Below, piece after piece: positions 3,331 through 27,658 of a stretch of 64,000 bases of DNA. The position numbers and the translations under genes are program-made. Source of the stretch: Pestalotiopsis fici W106-1 (lineage: Eukaryota; Ascomycota; Sordariomycetes; Amphisphaeriales; Sporocadaceae); contig NW_006917092.1 in assembly GCF_000516985.1 (NCBI RefSeq), positions 5,707,888 through 5,771,887 of the forward strand, in the 5' to 3' direction. Numbering within the stretch: the stretch's first letter is position 1; every line of letters starts with the position of its first letter. Below the pieces are notes generated by a model. That model did no database searches and was not told the DNA's origin. It worked only from the letters and a program-made list of their open reading frames with translations.

Positions 3331-5540
3331 ATGGGGCTCTACACAGTGTTGCCAGAGAGTGTCCAAGAAGTTGATATCATCATCGCTGGAGGTATGTGGA
3401 ATAGCAATTGCACTGCACGAACGCCATGATCAACCCTCACAATGAACCATGCATGAATTCTTTTTTCCATTTTCGGGAGGCTAATTTTGCATCCATAACT
3501 TCTAGGTGGAACGTCTGGGTGCATTGTGGCGTCAAGGCTAGCAGATGCAGATCCGAATCTTTCAATTTTAGTCATAGAGCATGGGCCCAACAATCAGAAC
3601 AACCCTCTGGTTACTCACCCCCTGCTCTGGCGCGCACACTTGGCGCCACAAACTGGGACGACCATATACTACATCGGGAAGAATGAAGCTCAACTCGGTA
3701 ATCGTGGTATCTACGTTGCTGCTGGTGGCGTTCTCGGTGGGGGTAGTTCGATTAATCTGTCCATGTATACGCGACCACAAGCCAATGACTACGATGCATG
3801 GAAGTCAAGAGGCTGGTCCTCCAATGATTTGATTCCATACATCAACAAGGTATGCGAGACTTTCTTGTGTGTTTCTTGCGGGAGCACGGCTGACAGGCTC
3901 CTATTAGGTAGAGACATACCACGGCGACGGACTCAAGGAGCACCACGGACACAATGGCCCAATTCATGTTTCCAGTGGTCCCTATCGCCAGAATGGAGCA
4001 GAGCGAAATTTTATTTCCTCTATGAATCAATTGGGCTACTCAGAAAACAAAGACTTGCAGGATCTTGACTCGAGCACTGGAGTATCGCATTGCCTCAAGT
4101 ATGCAAGCGCAGATGGTACACGACAAGATGTCGCACATGCCTATCTACACCCAAGAATCCAGGATGGTCGTCACGATAACCTGGAGGTCCTTCTCGAGTC
4201 GCAGGTGACCAAGGTCCTTTTCGATACCACCACCAACCGAGCCCTTGGTGTCGAATATAGAGCAAATCCCGCATTCTCAAAGGAGGCTGCATCACAGCCC
4301 CCACGCCGGGTCAATGCTAGGCAATTTGTTGTTCTTTCATGCGGCACATTGGGCAACCCTCCCATCCTGGAACGTTCGGGAGTGGGGGATACGAAAATCT
4401 TGGAGAATGCTGGAGTACCAGTCGTGGCAGATGTGCCTGGTGTAGGAAATGGGTATCAAGACCATCAAGTCATCTCCTATCATTACATGTCCAGCATGGC
4501 GATGGAGGAAACAAGTGATATTGCATTCCGTGACCCTGCCACGGCCATTGGGTCGTTGTTGATGAGTCAAAGTCCGATTCTTGGTTGGAACGGCTTTGAT
4601 GCATCGTCCAAGATCAGGCCAACCGAGACAGAAGTTGCTTCCCTCGGACAAGACTTTCAAAATGCGTGGGACAAAGATTTCAAGGACCTTCCGTCAAAGC
4701 CTCTAGGGACTGTGATCTTGTCGACAGGGTGGGTGATATTTCTGAAGATTGCCCATGTTCTTACTTGTTACTGATTTGAGTAGACTCCTCGACAACCCAG
4801 CAACATTCCCAGAGGGAGTTTATTTCTCCTTGGGATGCTACAATTCTTATCCATACTCGAGAGGCCACATTGTATTTACCCACCAGTCCGATGACCAACA
4901 CACTATGCTCTAGGCTTACTGACAATCTGCGAAAGCATATCACCGGACCAGCGATGGATGACGCTCTTGGTTTTGAAACAGGATTTCTTGCAGACCATGC
5001 TGAGATTGATCTGAAAACACACATATGGTTGTTCAAAAAGCAGCGCGAAGTGGCACGACGCATGAACATTTACAAAGGTGAGGTTGAAGGCCATCAACCG
5101 GCCTATCCGACAGGATCAAGCGCCACCTTTGCACCTGCTGTCCCGACCAACAATAGAACTTTGATTGGATACACTGAGGAGGATGACGCTGCTATCGGTG
5201 ACTACATTCGGAAGAATATCACCACTTGTGTAAGTTTAGTCCGTGGACCCACCCTTGGCGCAGTAGTCACACAGAAAGCTTTGATATCCATTATAGGATA
5301 TAAGCAGATGCTGACTATAAACCATTCCAGTGGCATGGCCTTGGAACTTGCAAGATGGCGCCTCGTGAGGAACAGCTCGGTGTGGTTGACGAAAGGCTCA
5401 ACGTGTACGGCGTCAAAGGGTTGAAGATTGCGGACCTCAGCATTGCCCCGCGTAATGTTTCGGCAAATACCAACAATACTGCCTTGACGATTGGGGAGAA
5501 GGCTGCTGACCTCATCATTCAAGACCTTGGGCTCATTTAG
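3331..5540 (+). CDS. GMC-family FAD oxidoreductase (alcohol oxidase-like)
   Basis: Six exons (3331-3391, 3506-3849, 3908-4728, 4784-4871, 4936-5229, 5331-5540) give 605 residues. The N-terminus carries the FAD-binding AGGGTSGCIVASRLA (formed across intron 1). The first GMC signature GVLGGGSSINLSMYTR and the second, GTLGNPPILERSGVG, follow, and the C-terminus has the catalytic-region histidine in WHGLGTCKM and an asparagine in NVSANTNNTALTIGEKAA. Members oxidise alcohols or sugars with FAD and release hydrogen peroxide. Exon 5 was placed by the conserved run SRGHI-HITGPAMDD, which requires a 64-nt intron ending GCGAAAG. No secretion signal or clear peroxisomal tag is seen (end LGLI). It lies upstream of the regulator on the same strand and may belong to the catabolic cluster, although its upstream region lacks the shared motif. 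The natural substrate is unknown. Confidence 0.88.
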
Positions 5541-6075
5541 GGCAATTTGCGTAAAATTGGTTCTAAAGACTATACCTATTCAGCTTGGTCGGTGGTGTTA
5601 TATCGTACATGGTTACCAATTGTGGGGAAGCAATCCAACATGAATAGTGGACACCATAGCAGAATGGATACAATCTTTCCAACGGTTGTCAAGTTCTTTG
5701 CATTCTGATAATTTAATTCCAACCCACTCGTCTAATAACATGGGGTTTTCAACTGCTACCCTTTATTTATTCTCACGATGGTTCATATTCGTAACACCTG
5801 CAATTTATAAGCTCAAAACTAGTATCAACAGCCCCGACCTTCGTAAATATTTATATCACCGAACTCGGCAGTATAAGTGCCAATGCAGGCGCCCGATGAT
5901 TAGCCGGGACCACCCAGTTACGCCTGCAAGGTGTAGAAATAGAGAGATAGACAATATCATTAGCGTTGTTTCGGACAGCCGACGGCCAACTCTTCTTATT
6001 CACTTACAATCTTGGCTACCTTATCTACTACTCTGGGTACGGATAGGCGAGCATACAGCGCCGTCTTTGTAGGCG
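5541..6075. promoter_or_regulatory. Promoter interval of the Zn2Cys6 regulator
   Basis: 535 bp separate the GMC stop from the regulator start. The interval is AT-rich in its middle and holds one copy of the shared cluster motif at 5978-5988, 88 bp before the start codon, which suggests autoregulation. No convincing gene lies here. Confidence 0.5.
5978..5988 (+). promoter_or_regulatory. Candidate Zn2Cys6 operator (CCG-A-CGG), site 1
   Basis: Reads GCCGACGGCCA, a CCG/CGG inverted pair with one base between, as Zn2Cys6 dimers often recognise. The identical 11-mer occurs at 9993 and, inverted, at 25488. Binding by the neighbouring regulator is inference. Confidence 0.45.
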
Positions 6076-8633: not shown

Positions 8634-9731
8634 CTAAATCCCGTCCGCCGCAAGCATTTTTGGTTCCACAACACCAGTATAGTCTGTTATCATTCGGTAC
8701 TGATCTGGCCTTCTGTGCTTTGCAAAGGCAAATGTCTTCTCCTTTCCTCGTCGGCAGTCGCCTAGATCAATGTTCGCAATCACCAACTCATCCTCCTTGG
8801 TGCTTGCCTCGGCAAGAATATGCCCGTTCGGGTGGACGATAATGGTGCCCGAGATAAGAGAGTGCCCATCTTCTAGGCCGCACTTTGCAACATTGACACT
8901 GAAACACGCATTCATGTAACTGTTGCCCTGGCAGGAAAGCTTGTGATGAAAAAGCACCTCCTCCTCGGCTGTTTTCCGATCAATGTCCTCGCTAGTGCCC
9001 AGTAATTGCGGCGCATATGCCGTCGTATTGTAACCACAGAATACAAGCTCGGCCCCCTGTAAACCATATGATCTCCAGCCCTCGGCCCAGCGCCTGTCGT
9101 TGCAGATGAGCATACCAAAGATGGCATCCCCCGAGCCCTCGAGCGGGATAGCTTCACCGGGACCGGCTGCCGTTTTGGCGGCATTTGGCAGCAAGCCTGG
9201 CGCTCGGAATGCAGGAAAGCCCAGGTCCCCGTTTGAAAAATAGCGCTTCTCCAGCTGCTGCGTTGCGCCAGGTTGTTTGAACGGCTCCACTACACCAGGG
9301 AGATGGACTTTGCGATACTTTTGAACAATCCGGTCGCTGCGAGCAGAATAGTAGACGCTCGAATTGTAGTAGCCAAAACCGTCTCCCGTCGGAGCCTTTT
9401 CGGCATATCCCACATAAACGTCAATGCCTAGGTCCCGAGCATGGTCGAACAGCGGCTTGATGCCTGGTGATTGACGCAGGCCTCCGTTTTGGGGATCATC
9501 GAGGTCAAAGTATGCTTCAAGCTCGGTATGATCCATAAGATGGCGAGGGAAGAAAGTAGTGAATGCCAACTCGGGGAAGGCGACGACTTGAACACGGCTT
9601 GCTGATGCCTGATCGAGGAGGCGGAACATGCGCTGTAGGACCGACTCTCTTGAGTCTGCGAGGTGGATGGGCCCTAGCTGTGCAGCTGCAACCCTCAACG
9701 GGCGCTTTGGGCGTTGGTTTGTGTTTGTCAT
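8634..9731 (-). CDS. N-carbamoyl-D-amino-acid amidohydrolase (D-carbamoylase), nitrilase superfamily
   Basis: A single-exon gene of 365 residues starting at the ATG at 9731; the frame is open further upstream but without an ATG before the promoter. The nitrilase catalytic triad is visible as Glu54 in FPELAFTTFFPR, Lys141 in YRKVHLPG and Cys210 in LICNDRRW. The phrases FPEL-TTFFPR, EKRYF-GDLGFP and ICNDRRW are characteristic of bacterial D-carbamoylases, in which the two arginines after the Cys-Asn-Asp bind the substrate carboxylate. The enzyme would hydrolyse N-carbamoyl-D-amino acids to D-amino acid, CO2 and ammonia. About 25 extra residues precede the catalytic Cys compared with bacterial forms. 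It is divergent from the amidohydrolase at 10226 and convergent with the regulator. No targeting signal is seen, so a cytosolic site is likely. A beta-ureidopropionase-like activity is the main alternative. Confidence 0.85.
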   Translation of the reverse strand: MTNTNQRPKRPLRVAAAQLGPIHLADSRESVLQRMFRLLDQASASRVQVVAFPELAFTTFFPRHLMDHTELEAYFDLDDPQNGGLRQSPGIKPLFDHARDLGIDVYVGYAEKAPTGDGFGYYNSSVYYSARSDRIVQKYRKVHLPGVVEPFKQPGATQQLEKRYFSNGDLGFPAFRAPGLLPNAAKTAAGPGEAIPLEGSGDAIFGMLICNDRRWAEGWRSYGLQGAELVFCGYNTTAYAPQLLGTSEDIDRKTAEEEVLFHHKLSCQGNSYMNACFSVNVAKCGLEDGHSLISGTIIVHPNGHILAEASTKEDELVIANIDLGDCRRGKEKTFAFAKHRRPDQYRMITDYTGVVEPKMLAADGI

Positions 9732-10225
9732 TGTCAAGGACTCTGGGTGCGGCGTGGCAGTCTTACTTGCTGTGAACCTTTTGATATGCACCTATGGGTT
9801 TCGTCCTACAGTTTGCAGTATGAGCATTATATCTGGCTGCCTTCTACCATAGTCTGGTATTCACAATGGACTTATCGAGCCGGTATAACAATACATACTA
9901 GCTACTAGGTTAGGTATGTAATGTAGGCGTCTTAGTTGGTCTTCGGCTAGCTCCGGTGTTTGCCGTCGCCGTCGCCGTTGATTTGGGTTCATGCCGACGG
10001 CCACTGGCCTCCCGCTCGCTTTTGACCAATCTAAAGTTGGAGCTCTGAACCGGAGTGTGGAAACAATGCGAGGATGTCTTATCATGATGTCGTCTATACC
10101 ATTTCAAAATTTTGTCTTCCAACTTGCAATGCGCTGGTTTAAACCTCGGCCTGCTCACCCCTCACGACTCACCAAGATCAGCCACCAGCTCCGACAGGAC
10201 TAGCAACAAACGCCCCCCAGACACC
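9732..10225. promoter_or_regulatory. Divergent promoter of carbamoylase and ATZ/TRZ amidohydrolase
   Basis: 494 bp shared between two outward-facing genes. It holds a GCCGTC-GCCGTC-GCC triplet run at about 9962 and the cluster motif at 9993-10003, roughly midway between the two start codons. Several TTATC/GATA elements typical of nitrogen-regulated fungal promoters are also present, though such short sites are common by chance. Confidence 0.5.
9993..10003 (+). promoter_or_regulatory. Candidate Zn2Cys6 operator (CCG-A-CGG), site 2
   Basis: GCCGACGGCCA, identical over 11 bases to the site in front of the regulator. It lies 262 bp from the carbamoylase start and 223 bp from the amidohydrolase start. 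Confidence 0.45.
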
Positions 10226-11659
10226 ATGCTGTCGCAGCTATACTACAATGCTACAGTCATCACAGTCGATAAGCTTAAGCGAATCATCCTTGATGGGGCC
10301 TTACTGGTCAAGGACGGGCGCATAGCAGCAGTGGGAAAAACTCTCGAGTTGCAACGCGATTTGCCAGACGACGTGCTGCAAGTTGACCTCGACCAGCGTA
10401 TCGTGATACCCGGCCTAATCAACAGCCATGTGCATCTCATCCAATCCATCATGAGAGGACTTTGCGAAGATCTGGAGTTGCACGAGTGGGCATCATGCGC
10501 CATCTGGCCCCTCGAGGTCTCCTTTCGGGCCGATGACGGCGCCGTGGCCGCCAAACTTGCAGTTGCGGAGATGATGAAAACAGGAACAACGTGTTTCCTG
10601 GAACCCATGTTACCAAGTTCTCCAGACAATGAATTCTCCAGAATCGTGGATGCTGTCGGGCAGTCAGGTATCCGGGCCTGTCTGGGCAAACTGGTCAAGG
10701 TACCCAGAAGCGATCCTTCCGCTGGTATACGCGATGATCGCGACGGAAATGCTGGGCAAATGACCATTGAAGCTGCAAAGCTGGCGCACGAGCAATACCA
10801 CGGGTCATACAACGACCGTGTGAGCGTATGGATGGCGTCTGAGACTCCTCGAGGGCAAGATGAAGCGGGTTTCCAAGCGGTCGGCACCGCTTGCAAAGAC
10901 CACAACATCAGACTTACCGTACACTGCGCCGAGGCCCCCGACGACTGCCACCTGATTGCAAAACACTACAAAGCGTCTCCCGCCGAATTCTTGCGGAATG
11001 TGAACTCGACTGGGCCGCATGTTGTAATCGGTCACATGGTCCACCTCGCTGAGCAGGACTTTGGAATTCTGCGCGAGACGGGGACCTCTGTCGCCCACAA
11101 CCCGACGAGTAACGCCAAGCTTGCCGACGGAATCGCTCCCATCCAGCGAATGTTAGAAGAGGGTATAAATGTGTGTCTTGGGACGGACGGCGCGCCCTGC
11201 AACAATGGCCACGATCTCTTCCGTGACATGCATTTGGCGGGTATCCTTCACAAAGCCGTAAATACAAACTCGAAAGCCTTGCCAGCCGAGCAAGTACTCG
11301 AAATGGCCACCATTAACGCTGCAAAAGCTCTGGGACTGGAGAAAGAAATTGGCAGCCTCGAGACTGGCAAAAAGGCCGATTTTGTCGTCCTCAACCATGA
11401 CGGGTTGCATGCTGCACCCTACAGCCCATCAGAGTCTGCCAAAGGAGGCATGCCGCCTTCTACTCTAGTAGTGCACAGCCTTTCGGGTAGAGATGTAGAC
11501 ATTGTTGTCATTGATGGAGAAGTCGTTGTTCGGGCCGGGCAGTTGGTGACAATGGATGAGGAAAAGGTGAAGAGGGATGCTCGAACCGCGATTGCTGGGA
11601 TGAGAGCAAGAGCGAATGTCAATGCGCAGAAGATGGCTAGGGGCTGGCACTATGAATGA
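10226..11659 (+). CDS. Metal-dependent amidohydrolase/deaminase, ATZ/TRZ (COG0402) type
   Basis: Single exon, 477 residues from the ATG at 10226 (the open frame extends upstream only through promoter-like sequence). Metal ligands of the amidohydrolase superfamily are visible: HVH in INSHVHLIQ, His in TVHCAEAP, His in GHMVHLAE and Asp in LGTDGAPCN. N- and C-terminal beta-sandwich strands flank the barrel as in cytosine, guanine and methylthioadenosine/S-adenosylhomocysteine deaminases and triazine hydrolases. The enzyme probably removes an amino or other leaving group from a nitrogen heterocycle, which could feed the hydantoinase. It is divergent from the carbamoylase with a common promoter. 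The exact ring substrate cannot be read from the sequence. Confidence 0.82.
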   Translation: MLSQLYYNATVITVDKLKRIILDGALLVKDGRIAAVGKTLELQRDLPDDVLQVDLDQRIVIPGLINSHVHLIQSIMRGLCEDLELHEWASCAIWPLEVSFRADDGAVAAKLAVAEMMKTGTTCFLEPMLPSSPDNEFSRIVDAVGQSGIRACLGKLVKVPRSDPSAGIRDDRDGNAGQMTIEAAKLAHEQYHGSYNDRVSVWMASETPRGQDEAGFQAVGTACKDHNIRLTVHCAEAPDDCHLIAKHYKASPAEFLRNVNSTGPHVVIGHMVHLAEQDFGILRETGTSVAHNPTSNAKLADGIAPIQRMLEEGINVCLGTDGAPCNNGHDLFRDMHLAGILHKAVNTNSKALPAEQVLEMATINAAKALGLEKEIGSLETGKKADFVVLNHDGLHAAPYSPSESAKGGMPPSTLVVHSLSGRDVDIVVIDGEVVVRAGQLVTMDEEKVKRDARTAIAGMRARANVNAQKMARGWHYE

Positions 11660-13292: not shown

Positions 13293-13793
13293 GCTTGCTT
13301 GCTTGCTTGCTGGTGGGGGGAAAGAAATGGTACGAGAGAAGAAACACCCAAGGTTTTACACTATTACATTTCTTGAATATATGCAAAAGTCTTCAAAGCC
13401 CGTGGACTGGGAGATATCTCACAAAGAGGTTCGGGATGCCCATGCTTGCTGTCGGGTCGGGCCCAATTCTCATCTGCATACCACTATAGGCGTTCACTCC
13501 CGAGGTGGGGGCGGGCGCAATCGCGGTTTGATCGTATGATCCACAGCCCTGGGAAATAAAAGAACGGCCTAGTCAGTGCGACTTTGGCCGGCGAAGTGCT
13601 CGCCGGCGCTAACGCCCATGTTGGCCGTGAGCTTGCAGTCGTCGTCTGCCACCAATGCAAGTTGGCAGAGTTCGTGAAACATGAGCTATTATCGTGGGCC
13701 TGAGGTTTTCCATCTCCCGGTAGACTATATATCTACGTGGATGAGCGAGGTCTTGGCAGGGCGTTCCATTGCCAACACAATCTTGTAGTTGAC
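13293..13793. promoter_or_regulatory. Divergent promoter of D-amino-acid oxidase and hydantoinase
   Basis: 501 bp between two start codons. Next to the oxidase start is a run of GCTT tetranucleotides (about 13293-13311). A perfect 8-bp inverted repeat lies at 13587-13607. No exact copy of the GCCGACGGC motif was found, in contrast to the other shared promoters. Confidence 0.5.
13587..13607. promoter_or_regulatory. Perfect inverted repeat, possible operator
   Basis: GCCGGCGA, five spacer bases, TCGCCGGC. A symmetrical GC-rich site near the middle of the oxidase/hydantoinase promoter, suited to a dimeric regulator. Function is inferred only. Confidence 0.35.
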
Positions 13794-13811
13794 ATGGAGC
13801 TCGATTCGATT

Positions 13812-13816
13812 ATTGT
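13812..13816. repeat. Target-site duplication, left copy (ATTGT)
   Basis: The five bases directly before the left LTR match those directly after the right LTR (19176-19180), the hallmark of LTR-element integration. They are also codons of the interrupted hydantoinase. Confidence 0.88.
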
Positions 13817-14049
13817 TGTCAGATGGTGGGTTATGGTTCCCATACACTGGGGTGTGCTTGAGCACACGGATCAACACCATGGAGTCCAGATAGATATACG
13901 GGACCTCCCGGGGATTAGCCGGGGCCACCTAAATAAGCGTATATTTTATTAAAACTAAAAGGCGTAAAATATAGATTAATATATTATATAATTAATATTA
14001 ATATTAAATTAATTTAAACTTTAATAGGAAAATATTATTTTAATTAATA
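13817..14049 (+). repeat. Left LTR (233 bp)
   Basis: Begins TGTCAGATGG. Its first ~115 bp keep normal composition; the rest is converted to A+T. Aligned to the right LTR, the differences I checked are only C/T and G/A transitions. Confidence 0.88.
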
Positions 14050-17000
14050 ATTAAAAGTTTTAGTGCTTTCGCCGAAGCTACGAAAATAATAATTACGAAA
14101 AAAGCCGGAATCGGCCTAACGGTATCGTTAAAAATAACTTCCGATTAGAATAATTAGGAATATACGTTTTAGATTTAAGCATAAATTACCGGATTAACTA
14201 ATTATTTTAAAAATAAAACGATTTTAATTAAAATTTTAATTAAACCGGATATTAAAAAGATTAAATATATAAAAACCGCGGTAGTAACCTTTAAAGCTAT
14301 AAACGAAAGCGATAATCCGAATATTTAAAATAAAAAAAACGAAAAATAAATAATAACGGATTTTACTAAAAAAAGTTAAAAATTATTTAACTTCGATTAT
14401 AATTATTATAAAATAAAAAAGGCTATATACGCTAAATAATATACGGCGATTAAAAAAATTACGAAATAAATAATTATTACGATTTTTTTAGACTTTTTTT
14501 TTATATGCTATTTAATTAATAAGCTTTTGTATAAATAATACGAAAATTTTAGGGCTTGCTATAGCAAATTAGCTTTAAATAATAAAAAAAAGCAAAAAAA
14601 TAATATTTCGAAGCTTTTAAGCCTTTAAAAATATTAAAAAAAGCTATAAATTAAATTAATAAATAAAAAATAATTATAGCGAAAGCCTAAATAAAGCAAA
14701 TAATTAAAATATAAAATAATTCGGTTTAAGTTATAAATTTCCTAAATACCGTTATTTTAATTATATTATAATAAGCCGCCTTTTATTAAATTTATAAAAA
14801 ATAAAGTATTTTAAATAAAAATTTAAAATATCGGGTAATAAATAATAATTTTCGTAAAAGCTTAAGTATTTAATAGCCGATTAGGCCAAAAATTAAAAAA
14901 AGCGCTTTCGCAATTTACGCTAATAAAGCTAATAAATAGCTTTAAAACGGATAAAATAAAAACGTTTATTTTATTAAAAATTAAATATTTTTTTAATTAA
15001 ATACGGCTAATTTACGTAAAAAAAAAATAAACGAATTACTTATAATAAAAAATAAAAAAATATTAAATACCTTATTTACTACCTTTTTTACGCCTTTAAT
15101 TTATATTTTTACGTATTTTTAAAAAAAGCCTATTTAAATTTCGTTTTTAAAAATAAAATATAAATACGAATAAATAAAGCCTTTAAAAAAAACTTTAATT
15201 TATAAAAGCAGGTTCGTAATATAAAAAGGATTAAAATTAGCCGAATTAGTATATTACGAATAATTAAGGAAAAATCGCTCCCGATTAATACGGATTAATA
15301 AAATAGATAATTAATAATAAATATATAAAGTAATTTTATAATATTTATAAAAAACTACTTTTTACGCTATTTAATTATTTTAAATTTAGCGATAACGATT
15401 TTAATTATAAATATAAAAATAAAGCTTATTAATTATAGGCAAATTTTTAATTATAATTTTATTTAATTAGGCGACCGGAAATTATTTATTTATAAATATA
15501 ATATAATAATTATATAATTCGGATTTAAAATATTATTATTAAATAATATAGCTTATTAACCTAGATTGCTAATTATATTAATATTATTCCGTTAATTATA
15601 AAAATAAGGATATTATTAAAATAATAAAAATAATTTTATAATATTACGCAAAAAAAATAAATTTTTAATTAATATATTTTAAAACTAATATAAATAATAT
15701 ATTTTTAAATATAGATTTTATAAATTACCTTTAGCGTTATTTATTATTTACCGGAAAAAATATATAATATAAATAAAAAAGCTATTATTAATTAAAAAAG
15801 TTATACGATAATATTATAAAATAGGATACCTAGGCCCGGCAGCTTTTAAATACCTTATTTATTTATTTTAAAAGGTAAAAATTAAAGGACTAATTATAAT
15901 AAAATATAAAGTTTGCGTATTTATAAAAATTAAGCGCTAATTACGGCAAGCGCTACGGCTAATTAACGAAAATTATAGCGAACGATTAGCTATAAATTTT
16001 TATAATTATATTAAAAAAATCGAAAATTATATATTTTAAATATTAATTATTTATCGGCAAACGGAATATATATAAAATTATTATTTTACGGAAAAAATTG
16101 CTATTATATTAATTAACGCTTTCCGATCGTTTTTAAGCATAATAAAAACTTAATATAATATTAAAATTAAAATTATCGAATATAATAATAAAATTACCAA
16201 AATTAAATAAGTAATCGGAAAATATTTTAAAAATAAATATATTAAATTTAAACCTTTAGCATTATATATATAAGCCTAAAATAAAGCTATTAAACGCTTA
16301 AAGGGTATAATTAAAAAAAAACGTATAATACGCACCGGCGCAAAATTCTTTTATTAATTTTAGCCTAAAATCGGTAAAACCGCGGTATACCTATATAATC
16401 GTATACCGAATTATAATTCCCGATAATATATATTATATATAAAATTTTATAAAGCAATTGCGAAAATAAAAAAAGTCTTAAATCCGAGCTATAAGCTTAA
16501 TTAAATTTATTTTAAAATATTCGGATATAAAGCGTATATAATAACGCTAACGATATAATAAAAATTTGGCCGTTTATAGCGATTAATACCTAAAATATAA
16601 ATAGGATATTTAATCGGATATAAATTATTTAATATTTATAAAATTTAGATTTTTAATCGGAATAAATTAATTAATATAAAAAATATAATTATAAACGAAA
16701 AAAAATTATATAATAAAAAATAAAATATATTTAAAAACGAGTTTTTAAATGCTAATATTTAGCTTATCGCCGATTTCGTAACTAATTACGCAATATTTAA
16801 AAACGAGATTTTATAAAAACTAAAAAGTAAAAAAACCGCCGCAAAAAATATTTTATTAAGCGATAATTAAAATAATTAAAAAAAAAATAATAACTAAAAA
16901 AATAAAAAAGCAGCGCTAAATAAAAAAAAATAATACCTTTTTATTACCGCGAAATTTGCCTTTTAAACTTTATTATAAATATTTTTATTAGCTTTATTAA

Positions 17001-17525
17001 CATATAATATAAAAGCGATTATAATTAAAAATACGGCGCTATTAAAAAAAGGACCTAAAATAATCCTATAGCAAATAATTTTTTTAGCTAATTATAAAGC
17101 TATTCCTAAAGCAGGATAAAGCAATAATTAAAATAATAAAGCGAAACTAAAACGCTTTTTTCGTTAAAAGGTAAAAATTTATAAAGCGGAAATCCTAGCT
17201 TTTTTTAAATAATATTATAAATTATATTATTATTTATTTAGCAAATTATTTTTTTAAATAAAAGCTAATTATTTATAAAATTATAAAAATATATAATTTT
17301 AAACTAAAATTAATAAAAAGGATTTATAAATAAAAAGTAAATAAATCTTTAATTATATATAAATATATATATATATAAATTCGATAAATACGGGAAATTT
17401 TAAAAATATAAAGCAAAATTTATCGTTTACGGTAATTAATAGGCGAAATCCTAAAATTAGGAAATTTACGCGGTTATATTAGCTAAAAAATTATTTCGCA
17501 TTTTAATCGCGATTATAGCAAAATT

Positions 17526-17625
17526 NNNNNNNNNNNNNNNNNNNNNNNNNNNNNNNNNNNNNNNNNNNNNNNNNNNNNNNNNNNNNNNNNNNNNNNNNNN
17601 NNNNNNNNNNNNNNNNNNNNNNNNN
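17526..17625. other. Assembly gap of 100 N inside the retrotransposon
   Basis: Exactly 100 N, the conventional length for a gap of unknown size, so element length and content here are unresolved. Confidence 0.95.
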
Positions 17626-18942
17626 CGACTTTAAATTAATATAATATAACGTAATAAACGCGTTTATATACGCTTTTATTAATTAAAATATATTTATAAA
17701 AATACCGGATAAATATCGAAAAAAAAACATTATATTAATATTAAATAAAGCATTTTATAAATTACGGATATTACCGCTATTATAGCAAAAAAAATTTATA
17801 AAAATTTTAGCCGAAATCGGCTATACCTAAATATTATATAAGCTTTGCGTATTTATTAATAAAAAAATGCTAATTTTCTTTTACGTTAACGACGTAATTA
17901 TCGTATATAAAAATAAAAATAAAAAGGCTATTAATTATTTAATATAGCATTTTATAAAAAAATATAAAATTAATAATAGCGAGCTAATATAATAATTTTT
18001 TAAAATAAAAATAATTAAAAATCGTATATTTAAAATAATTTAGCTATTTTAAAAGGCTTATTTTAAAAAAATCGCTAAGCTTATAAATAAAAAAAAAATT
18101 TATATAACGCTAATAAATTGCGAAAAACTTATATTTCGATTAATTATAGCGTTTTTTTACGAAATATAAAAATATTAAAAAAAAATCGGATTACTGCTAT
18201 TCGCGGCTATATTTATAAAACTAAATATTATATTTATAATAATTAAATTAGCTCGATTCCTTAATAATTTAAATTAAATATATTAAAAAGCTGCTAATCG
18301 AGCTTTAATTTACCTAATTAATACTAAAAAACTTTCGCTTAAAATCGGAGGATTTTCTAATTTAATAATTATTAATAATATATTATTTATTAATAATAAT
18401 ATTAATCGTAAAAATACCTAAATATTTATTATAAAGCTATTTAAAAAATTAATTAATTAGCAATTAAATAAATAAAATATAATTATTATTTTTATTATAA
18501 AAGCTAAATTATTTACCTTAGCATAAATTGCTAAAAAAACATTATTTATTAGCCGATTATTAAAAAAAATTATCGATATAACTAAATAATAATATTATTA
18601 TTATTAAATATAATAATAAGCAAATTATTAATTTAATTAACGCCGAAATCGCGTTATTAAAAATAAAACTCCGTTATATAAATATTTACAATTATTAATT
18701 ACGATAAAAAGCCTAAAAAAAAAGGATTAAAATTATTTATAAACCTTTAAATAAAATAATAATAAATAAATTAACGAAAAACTTGCTAATAGGCAAATAA
18801 CAGAATTTTTTGCAATAAATAGGATTTAATATTATTTATCGTAATTAAAACGAATAGCCTTATAAAAAGCTAAATCTTGCTAATTAGCAATTTTAATTTA
18901 AATATAGCCAGATTTACGATAAATCGTGGATTTAAGGGGGTA

Positions 18943-19175
18943 TATTAAATAATAGGTTATAATTCCTATATACTAAGGTGTGCTTAAGCATACGGATTAA
19001 CACTATAAAGTCTAGATAAATATACGGGACCTCCCGGGGATTAGCCGGGGCCACCCAAATAAGCGTACACCTTATCAAAACTAAAAGGCGCAGAACATAG
19101 ATCAATACATCACACAATTGACACCAATATCAGACCAGTTTAAACTCCAATAGGAAAGCACCACCTTGATCAACA
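18943..19175 (+). repeat. Right LTR (233 bp)
   Basis: Starts TATTAAATAA (the mutated counterpart of the left LTR start) and ends GATCAACA. The first ~75 bp are mutated and the outer part is normal, the mirror image of the left LTR. Confidence 0.88.
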
Positions 19176-19180
19176 ATTGT
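19176..19180. repeat. Target-site duplication, right copy (ATTGT)
   Basis: Matches 13812-13816. The next base, C at 19181, completes the Val codon of the broken hydantoinase. Confidence 0.88.
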
Positions 19181-20776
19181 CAACGGCATCATCGTGAGTT
19201 GACCGTCTCAATAATACATTCTACAAGCTCACAGCTGACAATGCATTTTAACCTCTAGGCAACGGCAAGTGAGGTGCTTGTTCCTGGACAGGAAATTGGC
19301 ATCAAGGATGGAAAAATCCACTGCATTGGTAGTTGTTTGCCTCGAACTGCCAGCACTATCATCATCGATGCAGAAGGTGCCTATGTAACCCCGGGTGGGG
19401 TGGATTCTCATGTGCACATTCAGCAAGACAACGCACCGACAGGTGATACGTGGGAAACGGGCACCAGAAGTGCTGTCGCCGGCGGCACCACCACTGTTAT
19501 TGCCTTTGCCTCCCAGAAGAAGCACGAAGAATCTCTCTTGCCAGCAATCACAGCATACCATGAAAAGGCAGGCGGTAACAGTTATTGCGACTATGGCTTT
19601 CATGTGATTCTGTCAAACCCCACAGACCAGATTTTGGAGAATGAGTTGCCTGCATTGGCTGATGCCCACGGCATCACCAGTGTCAAAATCTACATGACCT
19701 ACGAGCCTTTGAAATTGTCCGACAGGCATATACTCTACGTCCTGATGAGGTGCAGGGCACTTGGCATGACGACCATGGTGCATGCGGAGAATTCAGACAT
19801 GATAGCCATCGTCATAGAAGGGTTAGAGAAGCGAGGGAATATGGGGACCTGGTTTCATTCCGTCGCTCGGCCAAAGATTGCCGAGGACGAGGCAACTTAT
19901 CGAGCAATTGCTCTAGCTGAGCTTGTGGATGCTCCGATTTTGTTGGTCCACGTCTCTTCAGATATTGCCGTAGAGCATGTCAGGGCTGCGCAGGCTCGCC
20001 TACTTCCCATTCACGCCGAGACATGTCCTCATTATCTGTACCTCTTGTCGCAGGAGCTAAAAGGACAATGCAACGGCTCTGGCCACCACCATGGCGACAC
20101 TGATGACTTTTCTGGTGCCAAGGCTGTGTGCTCACCCCCTCTCCGCCACGATCCAGCCGATCTCGAGGGGCTTTGGCGAGCTGTCGCGAGCAATGCCTTT
20201 ACAGTGATCTCCTCGGATCACGCTCCGTCTACTTTCGATCATCCTGGTGGGAAGAAGTTGGGGTTGGTCAATGGCAAAATCCCAAATTTCACAAAAATAC
20301 CGAATGGTATACCCGGCGTAGAGACCCGCCTACCTCTTCTATTTAGCGACTGCGAAGGCTGTCTGCCCATTTCTGAAGCAAGGTTGTCTTTGCCTCAGTT
20401 TGTGCAGATGACGTCGAGTAATGCTGCAAAGATGTACGGTCTCGAGCAACGAAAGGGAAACATAGCGCCAGGATTTGATGCAGACCTGGTAATATGGTAC
20501 CCGGGCGACAAAGGTGCCCGGCTCATAACCCAAGGTAGACTGCACCATGGTGTTGATTATACGCCATTTGAAGGGATTAGGGTGCGCAACTGGCCAAGAT
20601 ATACCCTTATTCGAGGCACTCTAGTGTACAATGATCAAGGTGGCATAATAGGAGACAAAGGGTACGGGCAGTACCTGAAACGTGGCTTAGGCCAAATTTT
20701 GGTTGGAAAGACAGGCAGACAGGCCAGGGGCATGTTGAAGGACGAGCGATCGTTTTGGCAGCCAACGATGGAATAG

Positions 20777-21137: not shown

Positions 21138-22402
21138 TCAACTTCCGATTAAAACACCATCGACCTTTATCATAGAATGAGGCAAATTCACAACATCATT
21201 CTTTGCACTTGGGTGCTTGGTATGGGCCTTCCGCAGGCGATTGTTGTAGTGCTCGTAGCCCGTCATTCCCCTTTCGTAAGTTGGCTTGAGGGGATTTTCC
21301 TTTGTGACAAATTGGGGAAGAGTGGTGGTGAGTTCGTCCTGATTCAAGCCAAAGAAGAAGGGGAGAGAATATCGTTGTTTGGCCTTGTTGTTATTGTTCC
21401 GAACCCGGTGTATGGTGCTCTGGAATACGTCATTGGTCAATCGGGCCATCATGTCGCTCAGATTCACTACGAAGCACTCTGGCTCGGTGATTTGAGGTCG
21501 AACCCAATCACCGGCAGCGTTGAGAACTTCCAAGGCTGGCTGATCATACGGCCTCTGAGCGATCAATGTCATCACTAAAGATTTCAGGTTAGTTCTAGTG
21601 TCTTTAAATCATACATCCAGCCTGACAAAATTTGAGCAATACTAACTTTGGATGTCGGTGTGTGCCCCCAACCCGGTCTCGTTTTCTTCCTCGGGCTCTT
21701 GGGGCGGGTAGTAAAGGCAACGTACACTGGCAATGGGATACGTCGTTTTTTTATCAAAGAAGCTCTCATCCAATCCCAGTGCGGTGGCCATGACACGAAT
21801 CAGCTTTCTCATCAAGCTGAGGCAAGCCATTTGATAGGCCTCGATACTCTGCTGGAACTTAGGACACACGCTTCGGTCCGGCCAACAATTCTCGCGTCGC
21901 AGAGGTTCTGGAATGGCGGCTTTTGCAACTCCCTCGGGATCGATCTCCGGGTTATAGGCCACACTTACAGCCTCTTTTTTGTCTGAGTTGATGAGCCGTC
22001 AGTCGTCTGGAAAAAGGTTCAACCTGAGAACAATAGATACAAACCTCCTCGCTTCAAGCCATCGACGTTTGTGTAAAACATCTGTTCGTAGCCCATGTAT
22101 GATGGTGATTGATCTTGGTGGATCTTCATCTTCTCCTCATGGGGCAAGGCAAAGAACTCTTCAAGCCCGTCAAATGCATTCTCAATTATTCTCCAATCGA
22201 TGCCATGATTTTTAATGATGAAGAACCCAGCTGTCTTGCAGGCACCTCGAATCTCGGACACAAGTCGTTCATTGTCTTTTGCGGATGAATCGGGGCATGT
22301 CAAAGGGGCAAGGTCAATGATTGGAATCTCGGTGAAATTGCCAGCAATGCCGCCGCCCGAGACATTTCGAGTGAGGCCCTGCTGAAGACTCAACGTGCTC
22401 AT
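21138..22402 (-). CDS. 2-oxoglutarate/Fe(II)-dependent dioxygenase 1 (isopenicillin N synthase-like)
   Basis: Three exons (22402-22045, 21982-21647, 21574-21138) give 376 residues. The N-terminal DIOX_N region has IPIIDLAPL and GFFIIKNHGID. The C-terminal jelly roll has the iron ligands His and Asp in GLGAHTDIQ, the distal His in STIHRVRN, and the 2-oxoglutarate-binding Arg-x-Ser in RYSLPFFFGL. Such enzymes hydroxylate or oxidatively modify small molecules using O2 and 2-oxoglutarate. It is a close paralogue of the divergent neighbour at 23160: intron positions coincide and many blocks match. Within a ring-amide catabolic cluster it could oxidise a heterocycle or a side chain, as thymine hydroxylase does, but the substrate is unknown. 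Confidence 0.87.
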
Positions 22403-22764
22403 TGTTAGGCGCGGGTAATATGTTTTGATGGGTAGAGGATGTTCAAGATGATCAGGTCACGACATAAAATCTATTGCCCGCTAGACGTATTACATCCTTT
22501 GGGGCTTTTTGGTTGCAGTAATCTTTATCATGTCGCATCTTGGCCAAATGCACACACGTTTGCCAATTCAAACGGTGAAAAGGCGTGTGTATTGGCCGTC
22601 TGCACCAACACGCCGAGTGGATATGGCTGTGAGCCCATTGTCGTGCGTGCACGCTACACCACGCCACACTCCCGCCGCCAACAAGAAGGATAGAGCTAGA
22701 TCTGATTGCCCACCAAGGCCCACCTCGTCATTTCGGCCGATAGGAACTTTGGTATAGGAAGAGA

Positions 22765-22774
22765 TGCCGTCGGC
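22765..22774 (-). promoter_or_regulatory. Candidate Zn2Cys6 operator (CCG-A-CGG), site 3
   Basis: TGCCGTCGGC on the plus strand, the reverse complement of GCCGACGGCA. Confidence 0.42.
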
Positions 22775-22826
22775 GGGCAGGTGTGGTTGCGATTCGACCC
22801 CCAACATGATGCCCCGCATGCCCTTG

Positions 22827-22836
22827 GCCGACGGCA
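22827..22836 (+). promoter_or_regulatory. Candidate Zn2Cys6 operator (CCG-A-CGG), site 4
   Basis: GCCGACGGCA, inverted relative to site 3 in the same promoter. Confidence 0.42.
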
Positions 22837-23159
22837 AACACTTAGGCTTGAAGCGCCAACGGTGCGTGATGCAGCAGGGCCAGTGTCTGCAGCTAAGCGA
22901 CCTAGGCTATCGCGATTACCTTGTAGGCAGCTACAAGGGCTACACACTCGGGGCACTCCACCCGGCTTATAGGGCAATGATACACCTAAGGCAGGTAACT
23001 ACCTAACCTAGTACATATATCGTGATCCACCAGCTGATACGGTTCATTGCTGCAGTATCTCAGCGAAGGTAGGTATGTGATAGGACTTACACCACGCCAT
23101 CCATTCGGCATTTTTTTTCCCCCAACCTATAACGAACAGTTTCCATTGGAATTTGCATC

Positions 23160-24472
23160 ATGGCTCAGCCCACTACAACCACCACAACCACCGCAAAGAT
23201 CGAGGCCGAAGGCATCGCCGGCGTTTTCAATGGCAAACTCGTCCTGTCGCAGGGAATGACTAGGGCCCTGGACAGTGGGACTGGCGGCAACTTCAAGGCG
23301 ATCCCCGTAGTAGACCTGACTGCACTGATCTCCGAGTCGGCTTCAGAGGCTGACAAGGCCGAGTTGGCTGTATCCCTCCGCGAAGCTTGTACCAACGTCG
23401 GGTTCTTCGTGATCAAAAACCATGGCATTGATTGGACCATCGTGGAAGAAGCATTCGCTGGTCTGAAGCAGTTTTTTGACCTGCCACTGGAAAACAAGAT
23501 GAAGGTGCACCAATCAAAAAGTCCATCTTTCATGGGCTATGAGGAGCCGTATTACACGAATGTGGACAGGCTCAAGAAAGGAGGTACGAAGAACCAATGC
23601 CACTGATGCAGCATCAAGTTCTAACCTGAGCACCTGCAGATCTGAAAGAGTCAATGACGACAGGGTATGAACCAGAGCTGGATCCCGAGGGCGCAGGTTA
23701 CCAGCCGGAAGTTCTCTACCGCAAGAATCAATGGCCCGAAGACGGCGATGCGCCTCGTTTCCAGCCTGCCATGCGCGCGTACCGGGCTGCCTGCCTTGCA
23801 CTGATGAGAAAATTGGTCAGACTCATGGGGCAGGTCATGGGCACTCCGGAGGGATATTTTGAGAACAAGTTCACGTATCCAGTGGCTGGTATACGCGGTC
23901 TCTATTACCCACCGCAGGCCGCCGATGATTCAGAGTCAACCGGTTTAGGAGCCCATACAGATGTACAATGTAAGTAGCGAAGATCGCACAGGAGGCGGTC
24001 GTCTTTTCTGGTCGCCCGGGCGCTGCTAACTGCCATAGTTTTGACCATGATTGCCCAGGACCCCTTTGACATTCAGTCGCTTGAAGTGCTGAATGCCTCT
24101 GGCGAATGGATTCGTCCCAAACTTGAGCCGCACACATTTGTGGTGAACCTAGGAGACATGATGTCACGGCTGACCAATAATGCATTTGTCAGTACGGTGC
24201 ATCGGGTTCGCAACATTACTGGGCGCCCACGATGGTCCTTGCCTTTCTTCTTTGGCCTGAACAATGACGAGCTCGTCTCGCCTTTACCGCAGTTCATTTC
24301 CAAGGATAGACCACTCAGTGAGGGCTATGAGCATGGCATCACTGCCTATGAGCATTACAACCGCCGTATGCAGCGTGCACACCACCAACACACAACGGCA
24401 GTCGATAAATGCGACCCGACTCTGCCGCGTGGAATGACGAGGATCGATGGTGTTTTAGTTCCAGGCATGTGA
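23160..24472 (+). CDS. 2-oxoglutarate/Fe(II)-dependent dioxygenase 2 (isopenicillin N synthase-like)
   Basis: Three exons (23160-23583, 23640-23969, 24039-24472) give 395 residues. A threonine-rich start (TTTTTTT) precedes the DIOX_N region (IPVVDLTAL, GFFVIKNHGID). Iron ligands are in GLGAHTDVQ and STVHRVRN, and the 2-oxoglutarate-binding Arg-Ser is in RWSLPFFFGL. Exon boundaries fall at the same codons as in the divergent paralogue, so the pair arose by duplication and inversion. About 20 extra N-terminal residues are its main difference. Both paralogues keep all catalytic residues, so two related substrates or steps are likely rather than redundancy with decay. Expected to be cytosolic. 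Confidence 0.87.
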
Positions 24473-25213
24473 AATTTCTTCCAATGAGTCTACACTCTCA
24501 CATGGAAGATAGGAATCATCTCTCCATACCAACTGTTTGCTCCTTTCAAATGTTCGGTGTATGGCGGCAGGGAAAAGTTTTAGATGATGTTAGAGGAGGG
24601 AGGAAATCTCAACTTCCAGCTGCTACGATTCTGACTACCGACCTTGTATCATCCAACGTGTGTATCACCAATGGGGCTTTCAAGAGGCTTGGGAGGCTTC
24701 TGCAAACAATAAAGCCTTTTGATTTCCTAACCTAGGTCTTCCCCATATTAAAAGTTTTCTCAAGAGGAGTTCTTCTCAAACCAAGATTCTGCTTGGACCC
24801 CCATTGTAACGTGCACTCAAAGCCATTATAACCATCCACTAAAGCCATCCACTAAATCGACAAAACACAAAAAGAAAACTTGATTACTTTTGTTTTCTTT
24901 TTTCCTAACACAAGAAGACTTGACCACAACATATTTAAGTACAAAATCAAATAAAGGGCTTACGACTACATCACTGGGCATTTATGAATTTACAAAGATC
25001 ACGACAATGCAGTCGATAATATTATTTCGTATAGCGGCGCCTTCAGTGATCTTTGAAAGGGCAAGAAGAACTTTTGATTGAAAAGAACTAATTCTTCGTT
25101 CAAAAAGAACAGGCTTTCCACTGAGGGCTTTTAGCGCTTCCTGAAGGGCAAAAAGACTTCCCTCAACCCCCTAACCATTCCACTCCTGTAGCATGGCGGG
25201 CGCCTAAAGCCTG

Positions 25214-25257
25214 CCCCGCATCGCGCTGTACTTGAATATTCAAGTACTGATGCGGGG
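25214..25257. repeat. 44-bp imperfect inverted repeat with a perfect 20-bp palindrome
   Basis: Outer arms CCCCGCATC and GATGCGGGG enclose a perfect 20-bp palindrome at 25228-25247 (arms GTACTTGAAT and ATTCAAGTAC). It could form a cruciform or hairpin. No function is known. Confidence 0.7.
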
Positions 25258-25487
25258 TCATGCCAGTCTCTATGTCCTCAAATCCGGTGACGATCTTGTC
25301 TTTCCATAGTTCTGATCGCATCATTCCAGCTCTGGATAGCTCCAATACTGTATCTCTCCCTAGTAATCCATTGAGTTTGTACGGTTTTTCAAATTGACTT
25401 TGTCAGTAATCGGCCACAAGCGAGACGACTATCACCCAAGGGCAGGTCGGGGGTCTAAGGACGTATCTACGTCGGCGAACCCCTGCT

Positions 25488-25498
25488 TGGCCGTCGGC
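25488..25498 (-). promoter_or_regulatory. Candidate Zn2Cys6 operator (CCG-A-CGG), site 5
   Basis: TGGCCGTCGGC, the reverse complement of the 11-mer at sites 1 and 2, 546 bp before the permease start. Confidence 0.42.
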
Positions 25499-26044
25499 GC
25501 AAGACGTTGTCTGCTAGGCCCGGCGCCACAATCGTGTCTCGTCCTGGAGATAAATCGGTCGCTACCAAGATATTGGGGGGTTAGTGAATTTGACACCACA
25601 GCAAGTAAATCAAGTGGCCTATGTATGAGTAAGAGAACAAGTCGTGTCTTTTGCCTTTGAATCAATCGGTACCTGCCTTTATCGTCAAGCAGTAACTGAC
25701 ACGAATTCGCGCCATTTTTGCTTGGTGGCCGAGTTGGTCCCTGACCGCCGCTATCCGATTGCTGCTTATCAGTGTGCCCTTTCTTATCCAATCGTATTAA
25801 TCCAATATAGGCATCCCTAGCCATTCATATCGAATGATGATACTTGTGGAATCGATCTAAGGAAAATCCGCAGTAGCCCACTGTCGAATCTTGAAACTAT
25901 TTCATTATTCAAGATCTCTGGATTGGCACTGATATTGTGCCGTTTTCCCCCAACACTCTATTGCCTTTCATACTTGGCCATATCCCGGCTACAACAACCG
26001 AGGGCCCAGCACGATATTTTCTCACCACTCGACAAAACCCGGCA

Positions 26045-27658
26045 ATGACTGGACTACTTGCAAAAGTCCGCGAGGTCGTCTGGGGGCAACCAGCGACAAC
26101 TAAAGCTGAGCGGAAGCTGGTTGTCAAGCTGGACTGTGCCATTCTCACTTTTGTGTGTCTGATGTACTGGGTCAATTATCTTGATCGATCAAACCTCAGC
26201 AATGCCTACGTCTCAGGCTTGAAGGAAGACCTCAACATGCAGGGCACCGAGCTCAATCAGATCAATTCCGTCTTTTACGTTGGCTATACCTTGGGGCAGA
26301 TCCCCAACAACATTGCCCTGCAAAAGATCCAGCCCCATTTGTACTTTACTTGCGCCATAATCATTTGGGGCCTCTTCACTCTGGGAACAGCCTTTGTCAC
26401 GACCTGGCAGCAAGTCATGGCCATTCGTTTCTGTGAGGGCATCTTCGAGTCTGCCACTTTTGTCGGCACCCATTACGTACTCGGCAGTTGGTACAACTCC
26501 CAGGAGTTGGGAAAGCGCACCGCCATTTTTGCAGCTTCCGGAGTGGCTGGCAATATGTTCTCTGGCATCTTGCAAGCTGCTATTTATACTAATCTTAGTA
26601 CGATCTCATATTTGTCTTTTTTTTTTTTTTTTTTTCCTTTTCTTGGCGGACGGGATGACTGCCAATACTCGAAAGAGAAGATTGCTGACAATTGTGTTTT
26701 ATTACAGACGGCGTGCGCGGCCTCGCAGGGTGGCGATGGCTTTTCATCATCGATTTTCTCATTACACTCCCCGTGGCCGCTTTGGGTTACTTTGTTTTCC
26801 CTGGCCATCCGCAAACGACATCTTCTAGACTTTTCTCCGATGCAGAGAAACAACTGGCCATCGAGCGCCTCCCGGAGCCTGATGTGCAACGAGGAGAGCT
26901 CAATTGGGGTGTTGTCAAACGGCTGGTGTTCAGCTGGGAATTCTACCTCCTCCCACTCTTGGCTCTCTTGGCTGGTGACTCGGAAATGTATGTCGACAAC
27001 GCCATTATGAACTTGTGGCTCAAGGCCCTGGGTACGTATACCGTGCAGCAGATCAACTACATTCCAACTGCCATATACGGCCTTGGCATCGTATCTATTC
27101 TGTGCTGCAGCTGGTATGCCGATTATTTCAAGTGCAAAGGAGGGCGGGCCCAAGTCGGTGTTTTCTTGGCCATCACGTCCATTACATCCGGCGCTATCAT
27201 GCTGCAGCCGCCGAGCTATGCAGCCAAGTTCTTCGCTCTGTTTCTCAACGGGATGCAGCTCGGGTATCGAGGTGTTTTGTTCGCCTGGGCGAATGAGATT
27301 ATGAGGATGGATGACGCTAAAAGAGCAATTGTCATTGCCATGATGAATGCAATGAGTAAGTCCTGTCCCTATGCACGCGTTTTGGCTCTGTAACCTTTAT
27401 TAACAAAGCCATGTTATAGCTATTGCATTTTACATTTGGTGGACCTTGGTCTTTTATAATACAACGCAAGCTCCCGATTGGTATATGGGTAGTATTGCTA
27501 TGATTTGTAACGGAGTTGCCTTTGCATTATGTGTCCTCTTGGTTGCTTTCATGGCCCGGCGAGCGTCTAGGAAAGCCAACACGATAGATGGAATGACTGA
27601 GGATGAAATGTCACCGCAAAGTATCGAGATTCAAAGCGAACATAAAAGCAAAGCTTGA
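26045..27658 (+). CDS. Dal5-like MFS permease (allantoate/anion:cation symporter family)
   Basis: Three exons (26045-26597, 26708-27355, 27420-27658) give 479 residues. A short cytosolic head ending KAERKLVVKLDCAI leads into about twelve hydrophobic segments. The first contains the Dal5-family YWVNYLDRSNLSNAYVSG, and later ones contain VFYVGYTLGQIPNN, FCEGIFESATFVG and GVRGLAGWRWLFIIDF (the last created by splicing). The family imports organic anions such as allantoate, ureidosuccinate and vitamins across the plasma membrane. The first intron contains a 19-base T run. At the end of the cluster, with the shared motif upstream, it most likely brings in the ring amide or its carbamoyl derivative. 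Substrate inferred only. Confidence 0.86.

Follow-up and report, generated by a model that had tools for sequence, protein, structure and literature searches.

The 64,000-nucleotide stretch of DNA analysed here, referred to as the window, comes from contig C2 (positions 5707888-5771887) of the sordariomycete Pestalotiopsis fici W106-1 (Amphisphaeriales), whose genome of 51.7 Mb comprises 20 contigs. A set of nine genes within it is most plausibly an accessory nitrogen-scavenging cluster of filamentous ascomycetes, in which a dihydropyrimidinase/D-hydantoinase (HYD), a D-carbamoylase-like amidase (DCase) and a D-amino-acid-oxidase-family flavoenzyme (DAO) would act one after the other; we put the probability of this reading at about 0.6. 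Newly found here is that the HYD gene of the window is not intact and carries a long terminal repeat (LTR) retrotransposon in its first exon. The order hydantoinase, D-carbamoylase, DAO had been proposed earlier from the letters of the window (the sequence-only reading). It remains the best reading and the linkage behind it recurs in other fungi, however, with HYD split, a pathway working from hydantoin is not to be assumed in this strain.

Core enzymes and their conserved residues

The nine gene models were built by hand and checked against Pfam (for HYD, the open reading frame (ORF) of exon 2 only). Eight of them read through, with open frames and GT-AG introns; the exception is HYD, whose main ORF has no start codon. 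The genes stand in the order GMC oxidase (+), regulator (+), DCase (-), ATZ/TRZ-type amidohydrolase (ATZ, +), DAO (-), the 5.36-kb insertion, HYD (+), dioxygenase 1 (-), dioxygenase 2 (+) and permease (+). The span of 3331-27658 given by the sequence-only reading agrees with these models, running from the start codon of the GMC oxidase to the stop codon of the permease, and the enzyme families that it named were recovered by the hand models, Pfam, NCBIfam and PDB relatives. Contrary to what it had stated, ATZ stands between DCase and DAO, so that the pathway enzymes do not all follow directly on one another. The features of the three genes are:

8634..9731, minus strand: DCase, 365 residues, single exon, PF00795; catalytic E54-K141-C210
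12005..13292, minus strand: DAO (PFICI_03892), 349 residues, five exons (13292-12835, 12781-12613, 12556-12286, 12226-12127, 12056-12005); C-terminal ARL, resembling a type 1 peroxisomal targeting signal (PTS1)
13794..13816, plus strand: 5' piece of HYD exon 1 with the start codon, reading MELDSII (MELDCVI in the Thozetella homolog P0123)
13812..13816 (left) and 19176-19180 (right): target-site duplication ATTGT
13817..19175: LTR retrotransposon in HYD exon 1, 5359 bp including a 100-N assembly gap; LTRs at about 13817-14049 and 18943-19175
19176..20776, plus strand: remainder of HYD (PFICI_03893); exon 1 ends at 19193, intron 19194-19258, exon 2 19259-20776 (505 residues)

In a search with DCase against PDB, the best 11 of 19 sequences were all N-carbamoyl-D-amino-acid hydrolases (E-values 1.5e-67 to 3e-62, the next best being 2.8e-10), and the score was 231.6 bits for D-carbamoylases versus 43.1 for the best nitrilase/beta-ureidopropionase entry. 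The signatures ICNDRRW and FPELAFTTFFPR, on which the sequence-only reading had relied, are both present. The Glu-Lys-Cys triad and the NDRR residues have functional roles in D-carbamoylases; E54, K141, C210, N211, R213 and R214 are kept in 118-119 of 119 homologs. Relative to the bacterial enzymes, DCase has about 23 extra residues ahead of the Cys motif.

HYD scored 397.1 bits against TIGR02033 (dihydropyrimidinase/D-hydantoinase), above the curated cut-off of 393.25, and all six ligands of its binuclear metal site (HxH, K, H, H, D) are kept, as they are in 116-119 of 119 homologs.

DAO matched PF01266 (106.4 bits), and its best PDB relative was the D-amino acid oxidase 7ct4 (219 bits); the score against the ThiO glycine oxidase model was 47.4 bits, below the cut-off of 250.8. 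The arginine that binds the alpha-carboxylate (Arg278 of human D-aspartate oxidase) is present in 119/119 DAO homologs, and both this Arg and a Tyr aligned with five reference chains. PTS1-like ends under a strict pattern were found in 71/119 DAO homologs, as against 0/119 for DCase and 0/119 for HYD homologs. The deposited DAO model (P0241) ends one exon before the hand model.

A retrotransposon in the first exon of HYD

The sequence-only reading had spoken of finding an intact hydantoinase in related fungi, which suggests that it sensed a problem with this one. The main ORF of HYD has no usable start, its first codons (13794-13816) lying across an inserted LTR retrotransposon from the rest. 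The element at 13817-19175 begins with TG, ends with CA and has ATTGT on both flanks. Comparison of its two LTRs showed 178 of 230 aligned sites to be identical, while the 52 differences were all transitions, with 0 transversions. Its interior has a GC content of 16-18 % and a TpA/ApT ratio of 1.1-1.2, versus 0.53-0.74 in the surrounding genes and intergenic DNA examined. On account of these ends, the duplication, the transition-only differences, the low GC and the raised TpA/ApT, it is an LTR retrotransposon mutated by repeat-induced point mutation (RIP). The transposon that split HYD is old. According to an excerpt of PMC4320822, the assembly was made from 454 reads, with scaffolding by Illumina pairs.

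The terminal sequences of the element are dispersed genome-wide at 87-98 % identity, with 42 matches for the left and 41 for the right end, the window included, when 40 of 132 (left) and 40 of 115 (right) candidates were scored. Among non-self matches, 28/41 with the left query begin at 13815-13819 and 37/40 with the right query end at 19173-19180; since the dispersed copies mostly stop at both edges, the edges of the element could be placed independently of the gene. Other target duplications were considered, as the junctions share nine words of 4-6 bases, the longest being TTGTCA (6), but ATTGT alone makes the element run from TG to CA and agrees with where the dispersed copies stop.

On the side of the gene, 6/7 aligned HYD homologs begin with M-x-x-D-x-I/V-I/V-x-N-G, and in the window VNGII|ATASEV bridges the intron 19194-19258, at the same position as intron 1 of a paralog on contig C10. 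No in-frame upstream start was found in 19062-19258, where the frame meets a stop and has no ATG. The match of the peptide MELDSII by itself scored 30 against a background of up to 27 in one scan, so that the case for the insertion rests on the junctions. In the W106-1 genome the coding sequence of this HYD is interrupted; with exon 1 split, it is a broken member of its family. The deposited protein of PFICI_03893 (P0121, 473 residues) begins in a different frame and is missing the HVH metal motif (HxH), because its gene model runs into the transposon break, and it illustrates how annotation from a single genome can mislead.

Linkage and paralogs

Linkage was assessed by equal contig size in bases and by locus tags among the best 120 rows of each homolog list (DCase, HYD, DAO). 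Same-contig pairs numbered 14 for DCase-HYD, 5 for DCase-DAO and 5 for HYD-DAO, P. fici being counted in each. In a control with contig sizes off by 1-5 bases, the corresponding numbers were 4, 0 and 2, all on contigs below 10 kb, and a match on a 9,614-base contig is therefore less sure than the others. Judged on this basis, linkage of DCase with HYD recurs more than chance would predict, as does, in fewer genomes, that of all three genes.

All three genes share a contig in Thozetella sp. PMI_491, Cladophialophora immunda and Penicillium taxi, besides P. fici. Thozetella has its best-scoring DCase, HYD and DAO on one contig of 1.12 Mb, its weaker paralogs (HYD P0238; DAO P0268 and P0307) lying elsewhere. 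The tags in C. immunda are CLAIMM_01224 (DCase), 01226 (HYD) and 01227 (DAO), while in P. taxi HYD (N7495_007000) and DAO (N7495_006999) adjoin and DCase is on the same 6.65-Mb contig. Close DCase-HYD tags were also found in P. macrosclerotiorum (N7462_010329 DCase, 010327 HYD) and Claussenomyces (M1818_003943 DCase, 003942 HYD), and in P. hispanicum DCase (N7459_000163) and DAO (N7459_000167) are four tags apart. The sequence-only reading had named beforehand a lack of co-localisation in other fungi as what would refute it; for DCase, HYD and DAO, co-localisation was found in three other named genomes by contig and in two of them also by neighbouring tags. The P. hispanicum DAO model (P0277) is fused or merged with a RidA domain (PF01042); RidA hydrolyses imines made by DAO. 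No match to PF01042 was found in the window.

Searches of the P. fici genome detected a second HYD-DCase couple on contig C10, divergent and with open models (HYD 543 residues, DCase 358 residues):

L034 7084-8942, minus strand, and L035 440-1586, plus strand: HYD-DCase couple on C10

From its sequence this couple is intact and diverged from the couple of the window. A further HYD-like (dihydropyrimidinase-like) ORF lies on C12 (46-51 % identity), and DAO-like genes are found on C6 and elsewhere. Quick trees were made with 28 rows for DCase and 32 for HYD; their homologs, 25 and 27 in number, were in each case a selection out of 119 non-self rows. The C10 HYD looks like the resident copy, as its companions in the tree are Pestalotiopsis sp. 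9143b, Truncatella, Pseudomassariella, Pleurostoma and a second Thozetella copy (support 91-100 on the path to them); the C10 DCase was left unplaced. The HYD of the window stands beside Thozetella and a 197,171-base JGI contig (support 100), and the DCase of the window beside Thozetella, the same contig and Talaromyces atroroseus (support 97).

One scan of genome contigs gave six bacterial loci with HYD relatives at 34-49 % identity, and no match to DCase, ATZ, DAO or other window proteins was found in their flanks (up to 10 kb a side). Two of them (L046 and L047, in Rubrivivax and Rhodoferax, 47-49 %) lie beside ABC-transporter components and GntR/FCD regulators; in 10 chosen ORFs there, Pfam recognised transport components, GntR/FCD regulators, a DHDPS-family protein and a Crp-like regulator, one ORF being unmatched.

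Neighbouring genes and intergenic regions

The remaining six genes and three divergent intergenic regions are:

3331..5540, plus strand: GMC oxidoreductase, 605 residues, six exons (3331-3391, 3506-3849, 3908-4728, 4784-4871, 4936-5229, 5331-5540); PF00732 134.1 bits, PF05199 89.0 bits
6076..8420, plus strand: Zn2Cys6 transcription factor, 754 residues, two exons, candidate regulator; PF04082 65.8 bits, PF00172 23.0 bits
9732..10225: divergent DCase/ATZ intergenic region, 494 bp; holds CGACGGCAAACAC at 9956-9968, minus strand
10226..11659, plus strand: ATZ, 477 residues, single exon, PF01979 190.8 bits; putative amino-heterocycle deaminase
13293..13793: divergent region between the DAO and HYD start codons, 501 bp
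21138..22402, minus strand: 2-oxoglutarate/Fe(II) dioxygenase 1, 376 residues, three exons, PF14226 and PF03171
22403..23159: divergent region of the dioxygenase couple, 757 bp; CGACGGCAAACAC at 22829-22841
23160..24472, plus strand: 2-oxoglutarate/Fe(II) dioxygenase 2, 395 residues, three exons, PF14226 and PF03171
26045..27658, plus strand: major facilitator permease, 479 residues, three exons, PF07690 115.3 bits

Thus three couples are divergent, HYD being counted from 13794. Any roles of these six genes in the pathway are putative, and the GMC oxidoreductase is linked to it only by proximity. Two finer labels of the sequence-only reading could not be established: the regulator, called TamA/Dal81-like, matches Zn_clus and Fungal_trans only, and the permease, called Dal5-like, reached 134.7 bits against the major facilitator model TIGR00893, versus a cut-off of 395. 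The best NCBIfam match of ATZ was 5'-deoxyadenosine deaminase (360.8 bits, below the cut-off of 522), no equivalog cut-off being reached among the 25 listed of 63 matching families; its PDB relatives are AtzA and MTA/SAH deaminase. The exons of dioxygenase 2 match dioxygenase 1 at 49-56 %, the two being local duplicates. A role of dioxygenase 1 as thymine-7-hydroxylase was considered and rejected, its best PDB match being an ethylene/succinate-forming enzyme (141.5 bits) versus 74.9 for thymine dioxygenase.

The 13-mer CGACGGCAAACAC occurs exactly in the DCase/ATZ and dioxygenase intergenic regions, and a weaker copy with two mismatches lies at 5980-5992, ahead of the regulator; none was found in the DAO/HYD region with two mismatches allowed. 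Elsewhere in the 51.7 Mb it occurs twice; it is not enriched as a word, since the reversed control word occurs 4 times. A shared 13-mer arose in 5 of 1000 Markov pairs of the two regions, a figure to be read with the word having been chosen because it is shared, and for the same reason CGACGGCAAACAC is only a lead as a candidate regulator site. A second shared promoter block, TACTAGGTTAGGTA, was discarded, its 13-mer ACCTAACCTAGTA being a common genomic word with 44 occurrences (control 5). HGATAR counts, examined for GATA sites, were not clearly above single-base shuffles in five intergenic regions.

Between the GMC oxidase and the regulator, positions 5880-5950 resemble the LTR core in a weak alignment. 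At 54168-56576 very long open frames overlap on both strands (718 and 763 residues), the minus frame appearing beta-glucosidase-like by eye.

Weighing the pathway readings

On the reading preferred here, HYD would open a 5-substituted hydantoin to an N-carbamoyl-D-amino acid, DCase would free from it the D-amino acid along with CO2 and NH3, and DAO, in the peroxisome, would convert this amino acid to the imino or 2-oxo acid, NH3 and H2O2. The hydantoin itself probably comes from an amino/imino precursor ring that ATZ deaminates, while the permease would import the nitrogen compound and the regulator would control the gene set. The families, the gene models, the insertion, the conserved active-site residues and the recurrent linkage of DCase, HYD and DAO are read directly from the sequence, whereas we infer the direction of flow, the D-chirality, the substrates, the location and the roles of the other six genes. 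Because the retrotransposon split exon 1 of HYD, the W106-1 locus would act only past the hydantoinase step, on N-carbamoyl-D-amino acids or on D-amino acids that are already free, except where the intact C10 HYD supplies the first step.

Several observations weigh against this reading. In PDB, HYD is matched best by yeast dihydropyrimidinase, and the model used does not separate hydantoinases from dihydropyrimidinases. DCase has Gln159 where the bacterial enzyme 6led has a His, the substrate-site H143 of the Agrobacterium enzyme; fungal homologs have Gln in 118/119 and His in 1/119 cases, and this exchange suggests that its specificity may differ, hence the label D-carbamoylase-like. In the 18.5 kb examined around the C10 couple, HYD and DCase alone among the nine window proteins have a match, and DAO has none. 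The DAO listed for Coleophoma, Claussenomyces and Clonostachys rosea likewise lies on a contig that differs in length from that of the DCase-HYD pair. By these comparisons DAO is not an obligatory partner of DCase-HYD. In Pleurostoma, moreover, the HYD-DAO pair has only a 2.4-Mb contig in common.

The nature of the D-amino acids is weakly indicated by DAO itself. Where human D-aspartate oxidase has Arg237, DAO too has an Arg, as do 117/119 homologs (Lys in 2/119), while ReDAAO and RgDAAO have Tyr. This could point to acidic D-amino acids as substrates; in an excerpt of PMC8260693, the human Arg237 is placed at the active-site entrance and aids the binding of D-Asp. The hint is weakened from two sides: ReDAAO, without Arg at this position, still oxidises D-Glu (PMC6697736, in part), and the D-aspartate oxidase 9vpf has Met there. 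A neighbouring arginine, in the motif MYFR, is aligned with human Arg216 by HMMER but not by MAFFT. A more far-reaching proposal is a dedicated eukaryotic pathway, of patchy occurrence in ascomycetes, from amino/imino-hydantoin precursors to acidic D-amino acids burned in peroxisomes, through ATZ, a D-hydantoinase, a D-carbamoylase and a D-aspartate-oxidase-like DAO with dedicated permease and regulator, W106-1 being a natural hydantoinase knock-out; taken as a whole, we consider it speculative and rather unlikely.

The strongest rival, itself unlikely though deserving of attention, is that the locus is dead or dying, its remaining genes no longer having a function in W106-1 with HYD inactivated by the insertion. 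The insertion in exon 1 and its heavy RIP fit such a fate. So does the low identity of the nearest non-self proteins among the homologs listed, 73-74 % for DCase and HYD and 71 % for DAO, although the database contains other Sporocadaceae (Pestalotiopsis sp. 9143b, Truncatella), which appear with the C10-type HYD. However, the eight other models with their GT-AG introns are open, the flanking coding regions examined bear no RIP signature, and an intact HYD paralog exists on C10.

A second rival, distinctly less probable, is the reductive breakdown of pyrimidines (dihydrouracil/dihydrothymine), with HYD as dihydropyrimidinase, DCase substituting for beta-ureidopropionase and DAO as an incidental neighbour. 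The yeast match of HYD (361.5 bits) and the description of TIGR02033 as dihydropyrimidinase speak for it, as does the absence of DAO from the contig in 10 of the 14 DCase-HYD pairs, judged by the best 120 DAO rows, but DCase is far closer to D-carbamoylases than to beta-ureidopropionases, as scored above, and another dihydropyrimidinase-like gene is at hand on C12. DAO oxidises D-alpha-amino acids, while dihydropyrimidine breakdown ends in beta-amino acids and creatinine breakdown in sarcosine and glycine; the recurrent linkage of DAO thus argues against both routes. Beta-alanine, not being an alpha-amino acid, would be no substrate of DAO, which nevertheless adjoins HYD by tag in two other genomes and shares its contig in a third.

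That the locus serves secondary metabolism or detoxification instead of nitrogen scavenging seems improbable. Clusters of that kind often contain GMC and IPNS-like dioxygenase families, and dioxygenases 1 and 2 are duplicates of local origin. However, it is DCase, HYD and DAO that are found together again in other genomes, and no synthase or ligase was recognised by eye among the open frames listed to 34 kb, no whole-window profile search having been made. Least probable of all is a creatinine/methylhydantoin-like route, in which ATZ would deaminate an aminoimidazolone, HYD and DCase would open and decarbamoylate the ring and the flavoenzyme would oxidise a sarcosine- or glycine-like product, for while the deaminase-like ATZ does stand between DCase and DAO and has the 494-bp divergent region in common with DCase, the flavoenzyme is closest to D-amino acid oxidases and far below the ThiO cut-off, and bacterial N-carbamoylsarcosine hydrolases belong to another family.

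Comparison with known systems

The sequence-only reading had known of no described fungal cluster of this kind, and we likewise found no fungal hydantoinase-carbamoylase-DAO cluster in open-access full texts, subscription papers being outside the scope. The term hydantoinase refers to oxoprolinase-type proteins in excerpts of three fungal papers (PMC5737690, PMC12735256, PMC9505000), or stands only in the reference lists, as far as excerpts of PMC9505000, PMC11475479 and PMC11549461 extend.

The hxn nicotinate clusters of Aspergillus nidulans, as presented in part of PMC8478523, are alike in having an alpha-ketoglutarate-dependent dioxygenase, MFS (major facilitator superfamily) transporters, a specific regulator, a ring-opening hydrolase and conserved divergent couples. 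They differ in that HxnR is a C2H2 regulator and the ring opener HxnM a putative cyclic-imide hydrolase (same excerpt). The words carbamoyl, D-amino acid and amidohydrolase are absent from the text of PMC8478523. The Pfam matches of our nine modelled genes are to families other than those of HxnS, HxnM and HxnN, no dedicated search for these three having been made.

DAO has PF01266 and the aligned alpha-carboxylate Arg and Tyr in common with Rasamsonia ReDAAO (7ct4) and human D-aspartate oxidase (6rkf), and differs from ReDAAO and RgDAAO by the Arg, in place of Tyr, at the Arg237 position. Yeast dihydropyrimidinase (PDB 2fty) is the best PDB match of HYD. However, HYD is partnered here by a relative of D-carbamoylases, joined in some genomes by DAO, whereas the next enzyme of the yeast pathway is a beta-ureidopropionase from another family.

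The closest parallel is the bacterial route of D-hydantoinase and N-carbamoyl-D-amino-acid amidohydrolase (PDB 6lei, 1erz), which has the same two hydrolase families, the E-K-C triad and the NDRR motif. Unlike in that route, the fungal genes are separate and partly divergent, and are coupled to DAO in some genomes and here to an ATZ/TRZ enzyme. The bacterial pair is an industrial route to D-amino acids, while its natural role is unclear. Its recurrence in filamentous fungi, in several genomes linked to a DAO that has a peroxisomal-type C-terminus, would give the pair a physiological end point and provide a eukaryotic source of these enzymes.

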